A stretch of DNA of 34,950 nucleotides, taken from positions 1-34,950 of the forward strand of contig CAJOFR010000018.1 of assembly GCA_905234195.1 (NCBI GenBank), given 5' to 3'. The number at the start of each line of letters is the position of its first letter. Within the stretch, counting starts at the first letter, position 1. Both the position numbers and the translations under genes were made by a program. The notes below the pieces were generated by a model. That model was not told where the DNA came from. It ran no database searches and saw nothing but the letters and a program-made list of their open reading frames with translations. Source of the stretch: an uncultured Selenomonadaceae bacterium. GTDB lineage: Bacteria; Bacillota; Negativicutes; Selenomonadales; Selenomonadaceae. Shown here in pieces: positions 17,703 through 32,977 of the stretch.

Positions 17703-19142
17703 TTATAAAATGAACTGGGACAAATCGCGATTCTTCGCAATTTCTTTCAGGCGTTCGTCAACGTAATCGGCGTCAATCAAAATTTCAGTCTTGCCCTCCT
17801 TGACCATATCCGGCGCGTCGAAAGAAACTTCCTCCAAAAGTTTTTCAAGGAGAGTGTGCAACCTGCGCGCGCCAATATCTTCAGACTGCTCGTTGACGTC
17901 GTACGCCATTTCGGCAATGCGCTCAATCGCCTCCGGTTTAAATTCCAAGTCAAGCCCTTCAGTTTTAAGCAGGGCTTTGTATTGTTTGATAAGCGCGTTT
18001 TGCGGCTCCGTCAAAATTTTCTCGAAGTCCTCTTTCTGCAGAGACTTCAGCTCCACGCGAATGGGAAAACGCCCCTGCAATTCGGGAATCAAGTCAGAGG
18101 GTTTCGCCGTGTGGAACGCGCCCGCCGCGATAAATAAAATGTGATCCGTTTTTACGGGACCATATTTCGTCATGACGGTGGAACCTTCGACAATCGGAAG
18201 AATATCGCGTTGCACACCTTCGCGGCTGACGTCCGGGCCGGAACTGGAACCTTTCACGGCGACCTTGTCAATCTCGTCGAAGAAAACAATTCCGCTACGT
18301 TCGGCAAGTTCGACGGCGGCTTCTGCCACGTCCTCCATGTCGATAAGTTTTTCCGCCTCTTCCTGCTCAAGGATTTTTCGCGCGGCGGCGACTGTGACTT
18401 TTCTCTTGCGCATGCGTTTAGGAATAAGACTGCCAATCATATCTTGAAGGTTATCGCCCATGCTCTCAAGACTGGAACCGGAAAACATCCCGACCATCGG
18501 TTTTGCATGGTCAGCGACCTCCAACTCAATCAATTCATCTTCGAGCTTGCCGCTCTCAAGACGCTTGCGAATAAAATCGCGCCCCGCCTTCCCCGTATCG
18601 GGAGGAGTTTCGGTTTTCTGCTCGTTGTTCGCGTCCACGCCGCCAAAAAGTTTGCTCAAAGGATTCTGCGTTTGTTTCGGCTCCGGCACCAAAATTTCCA
18701 GCAGGCGTTCGTTGGCATTTTCCGCCGCCTTCTCTTTTACTTCTTCAGTCTTTTGACGGCGAACCATGCGGACGGCAATTTGCATAAGGTCACGAATAAT
18801 TGATTCGACGTCGCGCCCGACATAACCGACCTCCGTAAATTTCGTAGCCTCCACCTTGATGAAAGGAGCCTTGACGAGTTTTGCAAGACGGCGCGCAATT
18901 TCAGTCTTGCCGACGCCGGTGGAACCAATCATCAAAATATTTTTCGGAATAACGTCGTCGCGAATATCCTCCGCGAGTTTTCGGCTGCGCCAACGATTCC
19001 TGAGCGCGATTGACACAGAACGCTTTGCCTCGTCCTGCCCGACAATGTGTTTATTGAGCTCCTCCACGATTTCGCGCGGCGTCTGCTCATTCAAACCAAG
19101 CTCCGTGATAATTTCTTTAGCGTCATCTTTTTTTTCTAACAT
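17703..19142 (-). CDS. hslU: ATP-dependent protease ATPase subunit HslU
   Basis: HslU is the AAA+ unfoldase ring that feeds substrates to HslV. The 479 residues show the N-domain [20 protein letters not shown], Walker [10 protein letters not shown], the pore loop GYVGRDVES, a variable I-domain (about residues 115-250), Walker [10 protein letters not shown] and a sensor region. The C-terminus RDLSQFIL inserts into HslV and is intact. Walker A has Ser where GPTGVGKT is usual. The ribosome site CGGAGGT lies 10 bases before the ATG. HslV is immediately upstream, the normal pair. Confidence 0.96.
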
Positions 19143-19163: not shown

Positions 19164-19697
19164 TTAATCAAGTTCCTCGACAATAATATTCTGATTAGTG
19201 AAAACGCAAATGTCCGCCGCGATAGACAAAGCCTCCTTTGCAATTTCGGCGGCAGTCATTTCCGTGTGGGAAATAAGTGCACGACCGGCAGCAAGCGCGT
19301 AAAATCCGCCCGAACCAATCGCCGCAACATCCCCGTCCGGCTCAATGACTTCGCCGCTCCCCGAAAGCATCAAGATTGTGTCTTTGTCGGCGACGAGCAA
19401 CAGGGCTTCCAGGCGGCGTAAAATTTTATCTGTGCGCCAATCTTTTGCCATAGCCACCGCCGCGCGCTGCAAGTGCCCGTGACATTCTTCCAGCTTGCCC
19501 TCGAATTTTTCAAAGAGCGTGAAAGCGTCAGCGACAGAGCCCGCGAAACCCGCGATAACTTTATCGTGATACAGCCGCCGAACTTTTTTTGCCGTCGATT
19601 TCATGATTGTATGTTCGCCAAAAGTAACCTGCCCGTCTCCGGCGATTGCGGTTTTGCCGTTGCGTTTAACGGCGACTATTGTAGTTGCGTGAAACAT
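19164..19697 (-). CDS. hslV: ATP-dependent protease proteolytic subunit HslV
   Basis: HslV is the proteasome-like peptidase partner of HslU. The 177-residue precursor begins [10 protein letters not shown], so removal of a short propeptide exposes the catalytic Thr of TTIVAV. The Lys region [15 protein letters not shown] and the [14 protein letters not shown] segment are intact. Length is normal. Its ATG directly follows the trmFO stop (TAAATG), indicating tight translational coupling. Confidence 0.96.
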
Positions 19698-21017
19698 TTA
19701 TTTCAACTCCATTTCGTTTGAAAATTTTTCTATAGAATTTAATGCGCGTCTTGCAAGTTCAGATTTCCTGTCACGTTTTTTGATTCGCCCTTCGAGCGGC
19801 GGCAACAACCCGAAAGTTACGTTCATGGGCTGAAAATTTTCCGCGTCCGCCGTCGTGATATAATTCGCCAGCGCGCCGTGACAGGTTTCTTGCGGAAAAA
19901 TTATCGCGTCGAGATTTTTCGCGAGCCGCGCCGCATTTATCCCCGCCATTAATCCTGCCGCCGCCGATTCGACGTAGCCTTCGACGCCCGTCATTTGTCC
20001 CGCGAAAAAAATTTTCGGCGAGGATTTTAATTGGAACGTCGGCAACAAAACTTTCGGCGAATTAATGTAGGTGTTGCGGTGCATGACTCCGTAGCGAACA
20101 ATTTCCGCCGCCTCAAGCCCGGGTATCATTCGCAAAACCCGCCGCTGTTCCGTCCAAGTCATATGCGTTTGAAAACCGACAAGATTATACAACGTCGCCG
20201 CCGAATTATCCTGCCGCAGTTGCACGACGGCATAAGGCAAAATTTCCGTGCGCGGGTCGATTAGCCCAACCGGTTTCATTGGTCCGAAGCGCAGGGTATC
20301 TTCTCCGCGCGAGGCGATAACTTCAATCGGCAGACAACCTTCAAAAAAAATCTCTTGCTCAAAATCATGCGGCTTAGTTTTTTCGGCGTCGACGAGTGCC
20401 GCGCGAAAGGCAAGATATTCTTCGCGGGTCATCGGGCAATTCACGTAGGAATTTTCATCGCCCTTGCCGTATCGCGACGCGAAAAAAGCCTTGTCGAAAT
20501 TAATTGAATCGCCGGTGACAATCGGTGCCGCCGCGTCGTAAAAATAAAACTCTTCGCCGCCGGTCAGCTTTTTAATTTCGTCGGCAAGCGCGCCCTCCGT
20601 CAAAGGTCCGCTCGCGATAATCAAAATGTCTTCGGAATTTATCAGCGCGTCAAGGTCGGTGACTTCCTCCTGTGCGAAATTCACGGCGGCTTTAATTTTT
20701 TTCGTGACGACTTCGGAAAATTTTTCTCGGTCGACGGCAAGCGCGCCGCCCGCAGGAATTTTCGTTTCGTCGGCGGCGGAAATTATCACCGAATCCAGCC
20801 GGCGCATCTCTTCTTTCAAAACTCCGACCGCGTTTGAAAGACCCGCCGCGCGCAGGGAATTGCTACAGACCAGCTCGGCGAAATTTCCGGATTTATGCGC
20901 GGGAGTTTTTTTCAGCGGGCGCATCTCGTGCAAAATAACTTCGACGCCGCGTTTTGCAATCTGCCACGCCGCTTCAGAGCCCGCCAGCCCCGCGCCGATA
21001 ACATGAACTTTTTTCAA
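19698..21017 (-). CDS. trmFO: Methylenetetrahydrofolate-tRNA-(uracil-54-C5)-methyltransferase TrmFO
   Basis: TrmFO makes ribothymidine at position 54 of tRNA using methylenetetrahydrofolate and FADH2. The FAD-binding N-terminus is [20 protein letters not shown], and the conserved [21 protein letters not shown] segment with its Cys lies near residue 50. Other marks are [17 protein letters not shown] near 222 and [16 protein letters not shown] near 345. The 439 residues match family length. The start is a TTG at 21015-21017 that overlaps the TGA of the preceding topoisomerase-like gene (TTGA), an unusual start that depends on coupling. Confidence 0.96.
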
Positions 21018-22702
21018 GCCTTCACCTTCGATTTTGATTCAGATTTTTTCGCCGCGAGTTCCGCCTTGCGAATTTTGCGCGCCTCGTAACGTTTTTGAGA
21101 GTCGGCAATAATTTTATTGACGGGGTGATTTTCGCGCGTCGGACAATTTTCATTCCCGCAATAGAGCATCGCCGGACGATCCTTGAACCTGTGCAAAAAC
21201 ATCGTTGAACCGCAATTCTTACACGCCAGAGCTTGCGGCTCGTCCCACGTCATGAAATTACACGTCGGAGAATTTTCGCAGAGGAACAAATTTTTATTCT
21301 TCCCAAAATTTCTGAGCGTAATCCTCCCGCCGCACTTCGGGCACTTGTAGTTGGTGTACTCGACAATCGGTTTGGCGTTCTTGCATTCGGGGTAGCCGGA
21401 GCAAGCAAGAAATTGCCCGTACCGCCCGCGCTTAATCAACATGGGACGCCCGCACTTTTCGCAAATCTCGTCCGTCTCTATAAGCGGCTCCTCCTGCGGC
21501 TTCGCGTCTTCACCCAGAGAATCCATCGCCGCGCCGAAACTTTTCATGAACTTGTCACAATAGCCCGCGATGACAGAATTTTTTTCAGCGCGCCCGTCAG
21601 CGACGGCAAAAATCTGCGCGGCAACTTTGTTGTAGGAGTCGACGCTAAAAATTTCGTCAAAGAAACCGTCCAGCGCGCCCAAAACTCTTTTGCCCATCTC
21701 GGTGACTTTGAAAACGGAATCTTCAAGCGCAACATACCGCCGCTTAATCAAACTGTTAATGCCCGTCGAATAAAATTCCGCCCAATCTATTTTGAGATTG
21801 TCCAGCGTCGCCAAAATGGCGGCCTCGTTGCGTTCACCGCTCAGCTGAATTTTCACGGAAACTGTTCCGGCGTTGACCTGCGAATAAATCAGATTGTACA
21901 GCTTGAATTGCGCGTCGGTCAAATAATTTTTGACGTCGTCGGGGTTGCGCTCTTCGGTAGTCAGAAAAATTTCGCCGTGATAAGGATATTTGACGAGCCC
22001 GCCGAATCCTTCTTTGTCGAAGTTCAAACCTTCGTAAAGCTGATCCAAAACCAAGCGGGTTTTCGTCGCGGAAAAATTTAATTCCTTCAGAGCCAGCTCC
22101 TGCAAAACGCCGAAGGTAAAATTTTTTTTGACATTGAACTCACCGCCGGGCAAATCGCCGCTGATAATTTTCAGGAGCATCGCGCGGAACCTGCCGACTT
22201 TTACTCCGCGATAAATTTTGTAAGAAAGGTACTCGCCGATTTTGTGGCTGACGAACTTGTCAATAATTTGCCGCGTCTGAAAAGCGTCAACAAGTTTATC
22301 GTCAATCGGTCGGGCATTTTCCAGCGCGGTAAGCACAGAATTTTTCGTCAGCTCGTTGAAATCCATACGGCAACGAGATTTTTCATTGACGCCGAAAAGT
22401 TGACAGCACTGTTTCGCCAAAAATTCTCCGCGCGCATCGGGATTCATCGCCAGAAAAATTCTTCGCGCGTTAAGAGTTTCTCGCTTGAGTTCCCTGAGCA
22501 GGGGACCTTTGCCGCGCACGGTGATATAATCCGGCGCGTAATTATTTTCCGCGTCGATACCGATTCGGCTTTTCGGCAAGTCTTTCAAAAATCCGTCGGT
22601 GGACGCGACAAGATAACGCCTTCCGACAAATTTTTTAATGGCGCGAGCCTTCCCCGCGCTGTCCGTGAGTATCAGCGATTTTAATTGAGTTTTTCCCGCC
22701 AC
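21014..22702 (-). CDS. Topoisomerase I-like protein with degenerate catalytic core and intact zinc fingers
   Basis: The 562-residue protein sits exactly where topA is expected, before trmFO-hslVU, and aligns with type IA topoisomerases in order, but almost every catalytic element is changed. The TOPRIM Glu is Asp (TDSAGKA, residue 14). The conserved His of GHLRDLP is Phe38. The acidic DxDxE motif reads N87-P-D89-A-R91. SAGRVQS reads KVGRFRA. About 100 residues usually between that segment and the LQxxA helix are missing. The catalytic Tyr segment ITYMRTDS reads VKYPYHGE near Tyr239, and the HEAIRP segment is gone. Three C4-type zinc fingers follow (from Cys414, Cys454 and Cys494) with a basic tail. 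The frame is open throughout from a GTG start. DNA binding seems likely; DNA relaxation does not. Confidence 0.88.
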
Positions 22703-23644: not shown

Positions 23645-26116
23645 ATGCCGATAAATGCAGGAGCCGTAGGGATTCGCCCTGTAACTCCGGAGCGACCGAC
23701 AGGCGGGGTTGATGGCGTTCAGCGGCGGGACGACGGCGGATCTGCCGGTGGTTTTCGACCGCAGACTAATGTTTCATTAAAGACGGCGATTCAAGACTTG
23801 ACGGGAACTTTGTCGAAAATTGCTTCGCAGGAAAAATTCGGCATTGAAAGGCTACCGCAGGAAGTCGGGCAAGTCGTCAAAAATATTTTGCAACAAGCTT
23901 TTTCTATGGACGCGACACTTTCGCAGGGGATAGGCAGCACGATTGAAAGTCAAAGGTTTTCAATGGAGCAGCTGTCGACTTTTGCGCGGATGTTGTCACA
24001 AATTGGCGCGCTTGCGGAAAAAGGATTTTCTATGGAGTTGAGCGACGAAACTCAAACGATTTTGACGCAGTTCAAAAATTTAATAGTCTCGGAACGCGGC
24101 GGCAGTGCACTGGAGCCGGTTTTGATGTCGAAGGCGGCGTTTGAATTGGTGGATTCAAAAAACGCCGACCAACTTCCGCCGGCACTGTACGATATGTTAG
24201 CACAGCTCGCGCAGTCCCCGACAATGCCAATCACCCAGCCGCAACAATCGGAGGGGATGCAATTTTTAAAACAGCTCGTACAATATTTTATGCCGCGCCC
24301 TTCCGCCGAAACGACTTCTTCAGATCAGCAACAACCTCAGCAACAACAGCAGGGACAACAGATGCCGCGCCAAACGGCAACACAGCGGCTTTTGCAGTCC
24401 ATGTACCGGCAGTATGACGACCCGTATGCCTCGCCGCAGGCTAAGCAGATCATTCAGAATCAGCAGTCGCGGCAGATGCCGCAGGGGTTCCAGCAAACGC
24501 CGCCGCAGTCACAAAACCAGAATCAAGGACAAAATTTCCAGCCGCATCAAAATCAACAGCCCTTGCCGCAAAATCAGAATCAAGGACAAAATTTCCAGCC
24601 GCAGAATCAAAATCAACAGCCCTTGACGCAAAATCAGAATCAAGGACAAAATTTCCAGCCACAGAATCAGAATCAACAGCCCTTGCCGCAAAATCAGAAT
24701 CAAGGACAAAATTTCCAGCCGCATAATCAGAATCAACAACCCTTGCCGCAAAATCAGAATCAAGGACAGAATTTTCAGCCGCAGAATCAAAATCAACAGC
24801 CCTTGTCGCAGAATCAGAATCAAGGACAGAATTTCCAGCCGCATAGTCAAAATCAACAGCCCTTGTCACAAAATCAGAATCAAGGACAGAATTTCCAGCC
24901 GCAGAATCAAAATCAACAGCCTTTACCACAGAATCAGAATCAAGGACAAAATTTCCGGCCGCAGAATCAAAATCAACAGCCCTTGACGCAGAATCAGAAT
25001 CAAGGACAAAATTTCCAGCCGCATCAAAACCAACAGCCTTTGTCGCAGAACCAGAATCAAGGACAGAATTTCCAGCCGCATAGTCAAAACCAACAGCCCT
25101 TGTCACAAAATCAGAATCAAGGACAAAATTTCCAGCCGCATCAAAATCAACAGCCCTTGTCGCAGAACCAGAATCAAGGACAGAATTTCCAGCCACAGAA
25201 TCAGAATCAACAGCCCTTGTCGCAGAACCAGAATCAAGGACAGAATTTCCAGCCACAGAATCAGAATCAACAGCCCTTGTCGCAGAATCAGAATCAAGGA
25301 CAGAATTTCCAGCCGCAGAATCAGAATCAACAGCCCTTGTCGCAGAATCAGAATCAAGGACAGAATTTCCAGCCGCAGAATCAAAACCAACAGCCCTTGA
25401 CGCAGAACCAGAATCAGGGACAGACTTTCCAGCCGCATAGTCAAAACCAACAGCCCTTACAAAATCAGAATCAAGGACAGACTTTCCAGCCGCAGAATCA
25501 AAACCAACAGCCCTTGACGCAGAACCAGAATCAAGGTCAGAATTTCCGGTCGCAGAATCAAAATCAACAGCCCTTGTCGCAGAACCAGAATCAAGGTCAG
25601 AATTTCCAGCCACAGAATCAAAATCAACAGCCCTTACAAAATCAGAATCAGGGACAGACTTTCCAGCCGCAGAATCAAAACCAACAGCCCTTGCCGCAGA
25701 ACCAGAATCAGGGACAGACTTTCCAGCCGCAGAATCAAAATCAACAGCCCTTGTCACAAAATCAGAATCAAGGACAGAATTTCCAACCGCATCAAAATCA
25801 ACAGCCTTTGACGCAAAATCAGAATCAGGGACAGACTTTCCAGCCGCAGAATCAAAACCAACAGCCCTTGCCGCAAAATCAGAATCAAGGACAAAATTTC
25901 CAGCCGCATAATCAAAATCAACAGCCCTTGACGCAAAACCAGAATCAAGGACAAAATTTTCATCCGCAGAATCAAAATCAACAGCCCTTGTCACAAAATC
26001 AGAATCAAGGACAGAATTTCCAACCGCATCAAAATCAACAGCTTCCAGCCGCAGAATCAGAATCAACAGCCCTTGTCGCAAAACCAGAATCAGGGACAGA
26101 CTTTCCAGCCGCATAA
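23645..26116 (+). CDS. YlqG/FliK-like repeat protein, N-terminal part (frame broken at about 26042)
   Basis: The gene starts 24 bp after rnhB with an AAGGAG site, the position of ylqG-like genes in Bacillota. Residues 1-230 form a helical, Gln/Met-rich domain of unknown function (MPINAGAVGIRPVTPERP at the start). From about residue 290 on the protein is a Gln/Asn-rich array with a 20-residue unit of the type NQNQGQNFQPQNQNQQPL plus P, S or T and Q, repeated some 26 times in this frame. Near 26042 the unit is interrupted and the frame runs into 24 unrelated residues and a stop. The other frame continues the same array, so this is the front half of one gene that was, or still is, a single protein of about 1,470 residues. 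Confidence 0.85.
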   Translation: MPINAGAVGIRPVTPERPTGGVDGVQRRDDGGSAGGFRPQTNVSLKTAIQDLTGTLSKIASQEKFGIERLPQEVGQVVKNILQQAFSMDATLSQGIGSTIESQRFSMEQLSTFARMLSQIGALAEKGFSMELSDETQTILTQFKNLIVSERGGSALEPVLMSKAAFELVDSKNADQLPPALYDMLAQLAQSPTMPITQPQQSEGMQFLKQLVQYFMPRPSAETTSSDQQQPQQQQQGQQMPRQTATQRLLQSMYRQYDDPYASPQAKQIIQNQQSRQMPQGFQQTPPQSQNQNQGQNFQPHQNQQPLPQNQNQGQNFQPQNQNQQPLTQNQNQGQNFQPQNQNQQPLPQNQNQGQNFQPHNQNQQPLPQNQNQGQNFQPQNQNQQPLSQNQNQGQNFQPHSQNQQPLSQNQNQGQNFQPQNQNQQPLPQNQNQGQNFRPQNQNQQPLTQNQNQGQNFQPHQNQQPLSQNQNQGQNFQPHSQNQQPLSQNQNQGQNFQPHQNQQPLSQNQNQGQNFQPQNQNQQPLSQNQNQGQNFQPQNQNQQPLSQNQNQGQNFQPQNQNQQPLSQNQNQGQNFQPQNQNQQPLTQNQNQGQTFQPHSQNQQPLQNQNQGQTFQPQNQNQQPLTQNQNQGQNFRSQNQNQQPLSQNQNQGQNFQPQNQNQQPLQNQNQGQTFQPQNQNQQPLPQNQNQGQTFQPQNQNQQPLSQNQNQGQNFQPHQNQQPLTQNQNQGQTFQPQNQNQQPLPQNQNQGQNFQPHNQNQQPLTQNQNQGQNFHPQNQNQQPLSQNQNQGQNFQPHQNQQLPAAESESTALVAKPESGTDFPAA

Positions 26117-26300
26117 TCAAAACCAACAGCCCTTGCCGCAAAATCAGAATCAAGGACAGACTTTCCAGCCGCATAGTCAAAACCAACAGCCCTTGACGCA
26201 AAATCAGAATCAAGGACAAAATTTCCAGCCGCAGAATCAAAATCAACAGCCTTTGTCGCAAAACCAGAATCAAGGACAGACTTTCCAGCCACAGAATCAG
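24510..26300 (+). repeat. Tandem array A, about 30 coding units of roughly 60 bp
   Basis: Units of 60 bp, with some of 57 bp, follow one another without spacers and encode NQNQGQNFQPQNQNQQPL-type 20-mers. Variation concentrates at a few codons: Q/H after FQP, N/S next to it, P/S/T after QPL, and N/T before F. In several units the Gln-Asn step is shortened (QPHQNQQPL). Neighbouring units share variants, for example four near-identical copies in 25190-25430, which indicates recent local duplication. One junction near 26042 is out of register. Confidence 0.93.
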
Positions 26301-28085
26301 AATCAGCCGACCCAGCAAAATTTCCAACAGCCGCAAAATAATTTCCAAAGTCAACAGCAACTCTTACAGCAGAATCAAAATCAGCCGACCCAGCAAAATT
26401 TTCAACAGCTACAAAATAATTCCCAAAGTCAACAGCAACCCTTACAGCAGAATCAAAATCAGCCGACCCAACAAAATTTCCAGCAACCGCAAAATAATTT
26501 CCAAAGTCAGCAACAACCTTTACAGCAGAATCAAAATCAACCGACCCAGCAAAATTTTCAGCAACCGCAAGATAATTTCCAAAGTCAGCAACAACCTTTA
26601 CAGCAGAATCAAAATCAACCGACCCAGCAAAATTTCCAACAGCCGCAAAATAATTTCCAAAGTCAACAGCAACCCTTACAGCAGAATCAAAATCAGCCTG
26701 CCCAGCAAAATTTCCAGCAACCGCAAAATAATTTTCAAAGTCAACAGCAACCTTTACAGCAGAATCAAAATCAGCCTGCCCAGCAAAATTTCCAGCAACC
26801 GCAAAATAATTTCCAAAGTCAACAACAACCCTTACAGCAGAATCAGAATCAACCGACTCAACAAAATTTTCAGCAGCCGCAAAATAATTTCCAAAGTCAA
26901 CAGCAACCCTTACAGCAGAATCAAAATCAGCCGACCCAGCAAAATTTTCAACAGCCACAAAATAATTTCCAAAGTCAACAGCAACCCTTACAGCAGAATC
27001 AAAATCAGCCTGCCCAGCAAAATTTCCAGCAGCCGCAAAATAATTTCCAAAGTCAACAGCAACCCTTACAGCAGAATCAAAATCAGCCGACTCAACAGAA
27101 TTTCCAGCAACCGCAAGATAATTTCCAAAGTCAGCAACAACCCTTACAGCAGAATCAGAATCAGCCGACCCAGCAAAATTTCCAGCAACCGCAAAATAAT
27201 TTCCAAAGTCAACAGCAACCCTTACAGCAGAATCAGAATTATCAGCCAGTCCAACAGAATCAGCCGCAACAAGACGATTTCTTTTCGCGGCAACAGGACA
27301 TGAAAGAACAAATGCAGGCGGCAAAAACTACGCTCCTCCGCCAGCCACTGCAGAACACCCCGCAGACAATGGACGCCATGAAAAGCCTCGCGCAAATGCT
27401 CATGCGAAACACCGAAATGAATCCGCGCGAAACCGCCATGCTCCAAAATTTCGTCAACAACTCCCAGCCGATGATGTCCGAAGGCGAAGCCCGCCACTTG
27501 CAAAATCTCCTGCGCCTCTGTCAACAAAATGTCCCCGTCACCGTCCAACAAGCCGCCGTCCAACAAAAATTGCCGGACTTGCCGCGACTTTGGGCTTTTA
27601 TGCAACTCTGCGATATGGCAGGGCTCACCACGCAAATGACTGCCCGCGCCTTCAAGCGCGCAGGTCGTGACGTTTCGGACTTCGCCAATGCAATGCGCAA
27701 CGCCATGAGTAGCGATAACGCCACCGTCCAAAATCAACGCTCCTTCCAAATGATGCTCCCGCTGTATCTCGGCGATAACGAAACCAGCTACCCCACTTAT
27801 CTCAGCGTCTACGACGAAAACGAGCACGATAAAGAAATCGGCGTCGATAAAAAGGAGACGTGGGTCAGAATTTGCGTCCTCACTGATAATATCGGCGCGG
27901 CTGAAATGATTTTCCGCGTCTACGAAAAAACTCAACTCGATATGAGATTTTATTTTTCACAGCGCGAAGTTGCCAACGAGTTCAAAAATTATATCGCGGA
28001 CTTGAGAAATTCCCTGCGCGAAACTGAACTCAATCTTAACGAAATTCGTATCGGCAGCGTCGGCACGAAAATGGTCGGTCATTGA
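26073..28085 (+). CDS. YlqG/FliK-like repeat protein, C-terminal part
   Basis: This frame continues the repeat protein; the TTG that opens it lies inside a repeat and has no ribosome site, so it is unlikely to be a real start. It holds about four more 20-residue units, then 12 perfect-length 26-residue units (QPTQQNFQQPQNNFQSQQQP type), then an unrepeated domain of about 270 residues. The last 100 residues (TWVRICVLTDNIGAAEMIFRV through LRETELNLNEIRIGSV) resemble the C-terminal domain of the hook-length protein FliK, as YlqG-like proteins do. No flagellar gene is nearby, and the ylqH/FlhB-like gene that usually follows is absent. No signal peptide is visible at the N-terminus of the joined protein. 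Confidence 0.82.
   Translation: MSQNQNQGQTFQPHNQNQQPLPQNQNQGQTFQPHSQNQQPLTQNQNQGQNFQPQNQNQQPLSQNQNQGQTFQPQNQNQPTQQNFQQPQNNFQSQQQLLQQNQNQPTQQNFQQLQNNSQSQQQPLQQNQNQPTQQNFQQPQNNFQSQQQPLQQNQNQPTQQNFQQPQDNFQSQQQPLQQNQNQPTQQNFQQPQNNFQSQQQPLQQNQNQPAQQNFQQPQNNFQSQQQPLQQNQNQPAQQNFQQPQNNFQSQQQPLQQNQNQPTQQNFQQPQNNFQSQQQPLQQNQNQPTQQNFQQPQNNFQSQQQPLQQNQNQPAQQNFQQPQNNFQSQQQPLQQNQNQPTQQNFQQPQDNFQSQQQPLQQNQNQPTQQNFQQPQNNFQSQQQPLQQNQNYQPVQQNQPQQDDFFSRQQDMKEQMQAAKTTLLRQPLQNTPQTMDAMKSLAQMLMRNTEMNPRETAMLQNFVNNSQPMMSEGEARHLQNLLRLCQQNVPVTVQQAAVQQKLPDLPRLWAFMQLCDMAGLTTQMTARAFKRAGRDVSDFANAMRNAMSSDNATVQNQRSFQMMLPLYLGDNETSYPTYLSVYDENEHDKEIGVDKKETWVRICVLTDNIGAAEMIFRVYEKTQLDMRFYFSQREVANEFKNYIADLRNSLRETELNLNEIRIGSVGTKMVGH
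26301..27236 (+). repeat. Tandem array B, 12 coding units of exactly 78 bp
   Basis: Twelve contiguous 78-bp units fill 936 bp without remainder. Each encodes 26 residues, starting NQP(T/A)QQNFQQPQ and ending QSQQQPLQQNQ. Differences are few: Thr or Ala at residue 4, Asn or Asp at residue 13, and a more diverged second unit with Leu and Ser changes. The unit differs in sequence and length from array A, which ends where this one begins. Confidence 0.96.
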
Positions 28086-31149: not shown

Positions 31150-32373
31150 ATGGAACTTCGCAAGGGGCAAAAAATTCCACTCAACGAAAATTTTTTGTCG
31201 ATAAGGTTTGAAAAAAATTCGACGGCGGTTGATATTGACACGTCGGCTTTTTTGGCGGGCGCGAACGGAAAAGTTGCGGGGGATGAGGATTTTATTTTTT
31301 ACGGCAACCCGCGCCACAATTCCGGCGGCGTTGTCTATCGTGATGATTCGATTGAGATTGACTTGACGAAAATCCCGCGCCACGTCGAAAAAATTTCGCT
31401 GACCGCTACGATTTATGATGCGGACGTTCGCAAGCAAAATTTCAGCATGATTCGCGGAGCGGTCTTGCGGCTGAAAAATTCTTCCGGCTCGGAAATTGCG
31501 ACTTTTCCGCTGGAAAATTTTACCGTCGAAACTGCGATTGTGCTCGGTGAAATTTATCGGCACAAGGGCGCGTGGAAGTTCAACGCAACGGGCGCAGGGT
31601 TTAGTGGCGGTCTTGCCGCGCTGTGCAAAAATTTCGGCATCGAAGTCAGCGACGAAATGACCGCTCCCCCGACGGAACCGCCGAAAATTAATTCCGACAA
31701 GCCGAAAATCGATACCCGCCGCGAAAAATCTTCCCCGCCGACGAGAATTGACACTCGTCAAGAAAATCCGCCGCCGCCGAAAAAAATTGAACTGCGCAAG
31801 GGGCAAAAAATTAATCTCGTCAAAAAAGATGGCGCGCTCGGAGAAATTGTTATCAATCTGAATTGGAATCAGCCGGAGCGCACGGGATTTTTCGGGCGCG
31901 TTTTCAGTCGCGGCATTGATTTGGATTTGTGTTGTCTCTTCGAGCTGAAGGACGGCTCTATCGGCGCGATTCAGGCTCTGGGCAAACATTTCGGGAGTTT
32001 GACGCGGCCGCCGTATATTTCCCTTGACGGCGACGACAGAACGGGCAGCGTTGCGGCGGGCGAAACTATTCGCGTCAACGGAAAGTTTGTTAATAAAATT
32101 CAGCGCATTTTGGTTTTCACCTTCATTTACGAGGGCGCGGCGAATTGGGAGGAGGCGAAAGGCGTTGTCACCGTAAAATGTCCGGGCAGTCCCGAACTTG
32201 TCGTTCGCATGGACGAATACGGCTCGAATCTGCACACCTGCGCGATAGCTCTGCTGGAAAATGTCGGCAATACTTTCAGCGTCGAAAAGGTCGTCAATTT
32301 TTATCATGACTCTAAGGAAATGGACGAGGACTTTGATTGGGGCTTGCAGTGGGTATCCGGCAGGAAGGATTAG
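31150..32373 (+). CDS. Two-domain TerD/TerA-like protein
   Basis: The 407-residue protein has an N-terminal TerD domain (about residues 1-175; MELRKGQKI, FLAGANGKVAGDEDFIFY, ETAIVLGEIYRHKGAWKFNA), a Pro- and charge-rich linker (about 178-222) and a second, TerA-like domain beginning IELRKGQKINLVKK. TerD domains bind calcium and occur in stress and membrane-associated Ter systems. The N-terminal copy lacks the acidic loop that its neighbour has ([13 protein letters not shown]), so it probably binds calcium weakly or not at all. The second domain keeps an Asp pair in LDGDDRTG. It forms a pair with the terD-like gene 25 bp downstream. Confidence 0.87.
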   Translation: MELRKGQKIPLNENFLSIRFEKNSTAVDIDTSAFLAGANGKVAGDEDFIFYGNPRHNSGGVVYRDDSIEIDLTKIPRHVEKISLTATIYDADVRKQNFSMIRGAVLRLKNSSGSEIATFPLENFTVETAIVLGEIYRHKGAWKFNATGAGFSGGLAALCKNFGIEVSDEMTAPPTEPPKINSDKPKIDTRREKSSPPTRIDTRQENPPPPKKIELRKGQKINLVKKDGALGEIVINLNWNQPERTGFFGRVFSRGIDLDLCCLFELKDGSIGAIQALGKHFGSLTRPPYISLDGDDRTGSVAAGETIRVNGKFVNKIQRILVFTFIYEGAANWEEAKGVVTVKCPGSPELVVRMDEYGSNLHTCAIALLENVGNTFSVEKVVNFYHDSKEMDEDFDWGLQWVSGRKD

Positions 32374-32398
32374 TTTTTAGAGATTAGGAGGCAAAAAA

Positions 32399-32977
32399 AT
32401 GGCTATCAGTTTGAGAAAAGGTCAGAAAGTTGATTTGACGAAAGGTAATCCCAGTTTGAAAAAACTTTTGATTGGTCTTGGTTGGGACGTTAAACGTTAC
32501 GACGGCGGCTTTGATTTTGACTTGGACGCGGCGGCATTTTTGCTCGGCGCAAGCGGCAAAGTCAACAGCGACGAAGATTTTGTTTTCTACAACAACCTTA
32601 AGCACAAAAGCGGCTCCGTTGAACACATGGGCGACAACCTCACCGGCGCGGGCGAAGGCGACGACGAGGAAATTAAAATCGACCTCGAAAAAGTTCCCGC
32701 GAACGTCGAGAAGATTGACTTCACCGTCACTATCTACGACGCCGAAGCGCGCAATCAGACTTTCGGACAGGTTGAAAACGCATATATCCGCGTTGTTGAC
32801 GACGTGACCGGCAATGAAATTATTCGCTACGATTTGGGCGAAGATTTTTCCGTCGAAACGGCTGTTGTTGTCGGCGAAATTTATCGCAACAAAGGCGAAT
32901 GGAAATTCAACGCGATTGGCAGCGGCTTCAGCGGCGGGCTCGCGGCTCTCGGCAGAAATTACGGCGTCAACGTGTAA
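32399..32977 (+). CDS. terD: TerD-family stress protein
   Basis: The 192-residue protein is a full-length single TerD domain: [13 protein letters not shown] at the start, [28 protein letters not shown], the calcium loop [30 protein letters not shown] and the closing [19 protein letters not shown]. Family members bind calcium and are linked to tellurite, phage and general stress responses; the exact role is unsettled. AGGAGG precedes the ATG. No terC, terB or phosphoribosyl-transferase partner gene is in the window, so this is a minimal Ter set. terE or terZ are equally possible names. Confidence 0.92.

Follow-up and report, generated by a model that had tools for sequence, protein, structure and literature searches.

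The closest described relatives of the protein analyzed here are bacterial DNA topoisomerase I (TopA; TIGR01051, with E. coli TopoI and S. mutans 6ozw as examples) and topoisomerase III (TopB; TIGR01056), which belong to the same type IA fold family. In the accessible portions of PMC9352719, binding of RNA polymerase (RNAP) by E. coli TopoI is attributed to its C-terminal domain (CTD) and zinc domain, with 'in situ relaxations' and 'structural clamping' left as alternatives, and overexpression of the inactive Y319F variant is described as toxic, with R-loops forming, so that in E. coli, at least, a TopA without activity does harm. Y319F and isolated CTD constructs, as presented there, do not cut but retain the RNAP-binding C-terminal parts. 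Pseudoenzymes in general, pseudophosphatases for example, combine a conserved fold and purifying selection with the loss of catalytic residues. Within the open-access literature, which leaves most subscription papers outside, no conserved pseudo-TopA, bacterial type IA pseudoenzyme, or bacterial genus without Topo I was found described, and no paper was found for PDB entries 9gda-9gdh.

The window, a 34,950-nucleotide stretch from an uncultured Selenomonadaceae bacterium, encodes a protein (pseudo-TopA; Table 1) with three Pfam domains above the cut-off: Toprim, Topoisom_bac (best stretch 325-410 of 411), and Zn_ribbon_Top1. The protein scores 227 bits against NCBIfam TIGR01051 topA_bact, half of the equivalog cut-off of 456.4, which is thereby missed, and 29.9 bits against the topoisomerase III model, setting it apart from TopB, a real copy of which (629 bits) is encoded separately in the same genome. 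Like TopA, it keeps the C-terminal C4 zinc ribbons; unlike TopA, it lacks both domain II halves and part of domain III, and its metal site and Tyr surroundings are lost. Like the E. coli Y319F and CTD constructs, as far as the consulted sections of PMC9352719 describe them, it combines lost cutting with retained C-terminal parts, but those are laboratory constructs whose overexpression is toxic to E. coli, whereas pseudo-TopA is natural, genus-wide, and also gate-less. The structure prediction suggested in the preliminary description, performed as an AF2 model with a pLDDT of 87.6 and a pTM of 0.76, shows the TopA fold. The Toprim insert (aa 37-65) exhibits a high pairwise identity (0.72), yet the lowest model confidence is found there (block means 52-69), and this segment may become ordered on a partner or nucleic acid only.

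Table 1. Features of the pseudo-topA locus within the window.
Feature	Position	Strand	Evidence
Pseudo-topoisomerase I (topA orthologue), 562 aa, GTG start	21014..22702	-	Uninterrupted ORF, profile matches, cluster topA-trmFO-hslV-hslU
Degenerate Toprim domain, ~aa 8-133, including conserved insert aa 37-65	22304..22681	-	Pfam Toprim match aa 10-118, alignment columns, conservation; limits set from predicted model
Former DxDxE metal site, now N87-P-D89-A-R91	22430..22444	-	Translation and orthologue columns
Former SAGRVQS motif, now KVGRFRA, aa 168-174	22181..22201	-	S168K and Q173R in 49/49 main-clade orthologues
Domain II deletion junction 1, ~aa 182-195; 49 + 17 TopA residues absent nearby	22118..22159	-	Alignment
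Former catalytic tyrosine region, aa 235-244 (TopA: VGLITYMRTDS)	21971..22000	-	Alignment
Domain III deletion junction, ~aa 246-252; 31 + 11 TopA residues absent, including HEA of HEAIRP	21947..21967	-	Alignment
Domain II deletion junction 2, ~aa 282-290; 13 + 54 TopA residues absent	21833..21859	-	Alignment
Three C4 zinc ribbons, ~aa 410-527, 12 invariant cysteines	21122..21475	-	Pfam Zn_ribbon_Top1 62.6 bits in one stretch; 12/12 Cys in 57/57 orthologues
trmFO, TTG start, 4-base overlap with pseudo-topA frame	19698..21017	-	ORF and profile match
hslV, neighbour	19164..19697	-	Profile match, cluster
hslU, neighbour	17703..19142	-	Profile match, cluster

Elsewhere in the window, an Asn/Gln-rich tandem-repeat protein with units of 60 and 78 bases occupies 23645-28085 of the forward strand, split into overlapping frames (23645-26116 and 26073-28085) in different phases, and the array seems to hold a frameshift, reflecting either an assembly error or switching. 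Two further forward-strand frames of 407 and 192 aa at 31150-32977 resemble, by eye, TerD/tellurite-resistance-type stress proteins.

All catalytic residue changes named in the preliminary description were found in the translation of the gene, with the Toprim Glu replaced by D14, the metal site reading N87-x-D89-x-R91, and the Tyr present without its YMRTDS context and the subsequent Arg. Across 59 orthologues, the Toprim Glu column contains E (45), D (12), and gaps (2), and the conserved His column F (54), L (2), S (1), and gaps (2). The first Asp of DxDxE appears as N45, D7, S2, E2, T1, A1, and one gap, the second as D51, N5, V1, G1, and one gap, and the third position, Glu in TopA, as Q26, R13, E8, A6, K2, T1, S1, D1, and one gap, so that Q, R, A, K, T, or S occupies it in 49 of 59. 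The Tyr column comprises Y43, F11, C3, and W2, with Arg following it in 5/59. The six checked catalytic residues occur together in none of the 57 near-full-length orthologues, and DxDxE is intact in one of them, G031 (E-D-D-E-Y-K).

With the TopA of G053 as reference, the deleted blocks comprise 49+17, 31+11, and 13+54 residues, 175 in total, of which each of the 59 orthologues retains 0 to 15 (median 0), the eight divergent orthologues among them keeping 4-15, compared with 168-175 in seven intact TopAs. The loss of gate residues described earlier thus stands, its extent growing from about 100 to the 175 counted here. The domain II arch is absent in both its halves and domain III in part, with the arch gone in 59/59 orthologues and the HEA of HEAIRP missing in 59/59. 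Because some divergent orthologues with this same deletion keep more of the metal site, the alignments suggest that the gate was lost before the metal site. As the metal site, the arch, and the conserved Tyr setting are all gone, strand passage is, in our judgement, excluded for pseudo-TopA; its loss, already proposed for the single sequence, is supported by 59 orthologues sharing the deletion and a degraded catalytic set.

The genus, known from uncultured Selenomonadaceae MAGs of gut or rumen, was sampled with 66 genomes, one per species, most of them fragmented or incomplete. Orthologues with the same deletion are present in 59 of these, the window's own included; 57 of the proteins are stop-free with lengths of 538-573 aa, and two more are truncated by contig ends. 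A canonical TopA over the TIGR01051 cut-off occurs in a single genome (G003, 823.6 bits) at the same locus. Pseudo-TopA was not found in G002, G035, G062, G063, and G070, where a trmFO match is missing too, indicating that the locus is unassembled or lost there, nor in G006 (99% complete), whose contig ends inside trmFO. Fourteen genomes reach at least 90% completeness with no more than 5% contamination; 12 of them carry pseudo-TopA, and the other two are G003 and G006. A second pseudo-TopA in pieces (C207, C30, C161; L110, L116), with frames of 332 and 292 aa, was observed in G066, a genome with 6% contamination, possibly representing a strain mixture or a duplication.

Beyond the genus, a profile built from the 57 orthologues was run against 380 genomes of the class. 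Among the matches listed, the genus stood well apart from the rest: its 59 orthologues scored 727-980 bits, accompanied by the G066 fragments, while TopAs outside the genus were matched piecewise, with a best score of 311 bits and frames mostly of 730-840 aa, a few being shorter, e.g., 321 and 383 aa. In 398 phylum genomes searched for gate-less proteins at E 1e-75, 11 genomes matched, namely G000 and 10 of its family, the matches in those 10 being C-terminal pieces of TopAs; distant gate-less forms could fall below this threshold.

The window gene is a topA orthologue, nested among Negativicutes TopA and lying in the same cluster, topA-trmFO-hslV-hslU, that was present in 6/6 class outgroups examined. 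In the TopA tree of 34 rows, the 22 pseudo-TopAs included (of 59) form one clade with support of 100/100, its stem measuring 1.02 changes per column; the G003 TopA, which is intact, is the sister of this clade (99/96), and G292 comes next. A quick TrmFO tree of 32 rows groups these genomes with G003 (SH-aLRT 92) but leaves the position of G003 at the genus base unsettled, with a long branch of 0.79, and a single gate loss after the G003 split is therefore argued from the TopA tree. G003 (L097), assigned to the same genus, combines an intact TopA and this very long TrmFO branch of 0.79 with no TopB found, and may be a misplaced or fast-evolving lineage.

Selection was assessed on the 40 closest of 1,711 orthologue pairs, giving omega values of 0.103-0.286 for pseudo-TopA and, in 38 of those pairs (one or two from a 39-codon stretch), 0.026-0.162 for trmFO. 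The protein is therefore constrained, if slightly less tightly than TrmFO in most pairs, in agreement with the earlier proposal that it is under selection. Neither the relaxed selection nor the broken frames of a pseudogene were found, omega being low and the frames stop-free. With its catalytic residues lost, and its frame and predicted fold kept under purifying selection, the window protein is a pseudoenzyme.

Conservation is unevenly distributed along the protein. All 12 zinc-ribbon cysteines are invariant in 57/57 orthologues, and the mean pairwise identity of the three ribbons, 0.76/0.60/0.67, lies near the 0.76/0.64/0.55 of intact TopAs, confirming that the zinc fingers are well conserved. 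In the core, pairwise identity is 0.63 versus 0.87 among intact TopAs for the first part of Toprim, 0.64 versus 0.84 for the D4 groove, and 0.57 versus 0.82 for the first D3 part, a contrast that is, if anything, understated because the intact set of seven TopAs (six for the third ribbon) spans the class whereas the 57 orthologues represent one genus. At a threshold of 95%, 25 of 46 TopA-invariant columns are retained in the zinc part and 31 of 229 in the core. In the main clade (49), 51 TopA-invariant columns carry a different residue in at least 85% of the sequences, with S168K, Q173R, V172F, H98Q, and M240P found in 49/49; new residues have thus become fixed at the former active site, a sign of constraint towards a new state and not of drift. 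M240P is reminiscent of topoisomerase III, in which a conserved Pro follows the catalytic Tyr, as given in the available part of PMC10969213. Across 15 active-site columns, the net charge is -2 in TopA and averages +1.06 over the 49 main-clade sequences; the same columns average -2.6 in the eight divergent orthologues, and a wider column set yields only +0.49 in the main clade. A positive active-site charge was accordingly rejected as a general rule, holding for the main clade alone.

The window's genome comprises 2.09 Mb in 47 contigs and is 88% complete. A Topoisom_bac search matched two places in it, pseudo-topA and a 663-aa frame on contig 35 adjoining glmM. The latter is TopB, exceeding the TIGR01056 cut-off of 515.75, and its translation contains DPDRE, YPRSD, and HHAIIPT, which we take to be its catalytic motifs. 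TopB is thus the only complete type IA enzyme found in the genome: the second, complete topA that the preliminary description had proposed to look for was not found in this 88% complete assembly. A split gene with gate domains encoded elsewhere was likewise rejected, the same search having matched TopB and pseudo-topA alone. As a substitute, topo IB was found in 0/66 genus genomes (the control matched in 1/14 genomes). Topo IV was rejected for the window's genome, where the sole GyrA/ParC-family gene is GyrA (1171.6 bits, cut-off 877), gyrase being the only type IIA enzyme found. A GyrA/ParC-family match at 1e-20 was obtained in 60/66 genus genomes, one each except G002 (two pieces), GyrA and ParC being distinguished for the window's copy only; the six genomes lacking a match are 59-82% complete.

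TopB matches were obtained in 63/66 genus genomes, a figure that excludes G003 from 64, its single Topoisom_bac match and only type IA gene being its TopA. No TopB match was found in G011 and G027 (70% and 59% complete), though pseudo-TopA is present in both, and several genus genomes show two or more. As 172 of the 189 family genomes have a TopB above the curated cut-off (at E 1e-60, 181 match, G003 through its TopA), the enzyme looks ancestral rather than newly acquired. The genus TopB tail, seen for example at L001 (1060-3030), carries one CxxC pair in 20 of 31 loci inspected and two or three pairs in 11; among seven TopBs inspected from family relatives, six have two pairs, with frames of 831-844 aa and the second pair after a linker, and L167 has one.

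Our favored reading, to which we assign a probability of roughly 55%, is a neofunctionalised pseudo-topoisomerase serving as a non-cutting nucleic-acid clamp, probably RNAP-associated, while TopB relaxes DNA. It is favored because conservation is strongest in the zinc ribbons, which in E. coli TopoI reportedly contact RNAP jointly with the CTD; together with the predicted fold, these ribbons suggest that DNA or RNA binding is retained. In one Selenomonadaceae genus, topA has been stripped of the domain II arch, of a portion of domain III and, apparently later, of the metal site, and what is left would be a non-cutting protein that combines three zinc ribbons with the D1/D4 platform of TopA. 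The ribbons would tether this clamp to transcribing RNA polymerase, where it would hold or restore strands behind the polymerase, with topoisomerase III taking on supercoil relaxation. TopB in this genus may have taken over relaxation. Counted against the clamp are the reported toxicity of dead TopoI in E. coli, the Tyr in 43/59 orthologues, the DxDxE of G031, the restriction of the charge switch to the main clade, and the failure to find pseudo-TopA in G006. The wider picture is put forward tentatively, at slightly less than even odds: the genus would lack a catalytic topoisomerase I, depend on gyrase alone among type IIA enzymes and on topoisomerase III alone among functional type IA enzymes, and have converted topA into a polymerase-linked, non-cutting clamp.

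Next after the RNAP clamp ranks a role as an accessory subunit of TopB, in which the dead TopA would supply zinc ribbons in trans and so guide TopB, as the one active type IA enzyme, towards the polymerase or its substrate. The TopB matches in 63/66 genus genomes, the single tail CxxC pair in 20/31 genus TopBs against two in 6/7 family relatives, and G003, with an intact TopA and no TopB found, all speak for it, but 11/31 genus TopBs have two or three pairs, the relative L167 has one, topB of the window's genome lies on another contig beside glmM, and G006 has TopB with no pseudo-TopA found; we consider this partnership unlikely. Binding of RNA or ribosomes, or a partnership with TrmFO unrelated to supercoiling, is less probable again; the linkage to trmFO and the ability of type IA enzymes to act on RNA, stated in the consulted part of PMC10969213, count for it, but the linkage also occurs with intact TopA (6/6 class outgroups, G003, Clostridia loci) and therefore says little about a new function.

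That the protein still works as an enzyme, be it topoisomerase or nuclease, through a rebuilt active site appears very improbable. The Tyr in 43/59, a Toprim Glu or Asp in 57/59 (two gaps), the second Asp of DxD in 51/59, and the new K168 and R173 in 49/49 main-clade sequences would fit it, but the first Asp of DxDxE persists in 7/59, the third Glu in 8/59, and the Arg after Tyr in 5/59, the Tyr is replaced in 16/59, and the arch is absent in 59/59; we know of no precedent for strand passage without domain II. Less credible still is a leader reading frame kept solely for trmFO translation: despite the 4-base overlap and a directly downstream trmFO in 50/59 genomes, it is the amino-acid sequence that is under selection, and the full set of 12 zinc cysteines is retained. 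In the other nine genomes, trmFO was not found beside pseudo-topA, and eight of these have 1.49-5.41 kb of downstream sequence without it, although MAG chimaeras are possible. Pseudo-topA thus persists apart from this coupling, which the preliminary description had advanced as an argument for selection and which proves weak in that respect. With almost every assembly of the genus fragmented or incomplete, single cases could be artefacts, but 59 assemblies share the deletion with uninterrupted frames, synteny, and low dN/dS, refuting both an artefact and a decaying pseudogene.

A TopA over the curated cut-off is missing from 65/66 genus genomes, mostly incomplete MAGs, yet 59 keep the gutted orthologue under selection, suggesting that a bacterium can rely on topoisomerase III as its one type IA relaxase. 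The genus offers a natural case in which the structural role of TopA is split from its catalytic one, a question left open for E. coli in the accessible portions of PMC9352719. Should the wider picture hold, TopA would be shown to fulfil a structural role that selection can maintain apart from the relaxation of DNA.
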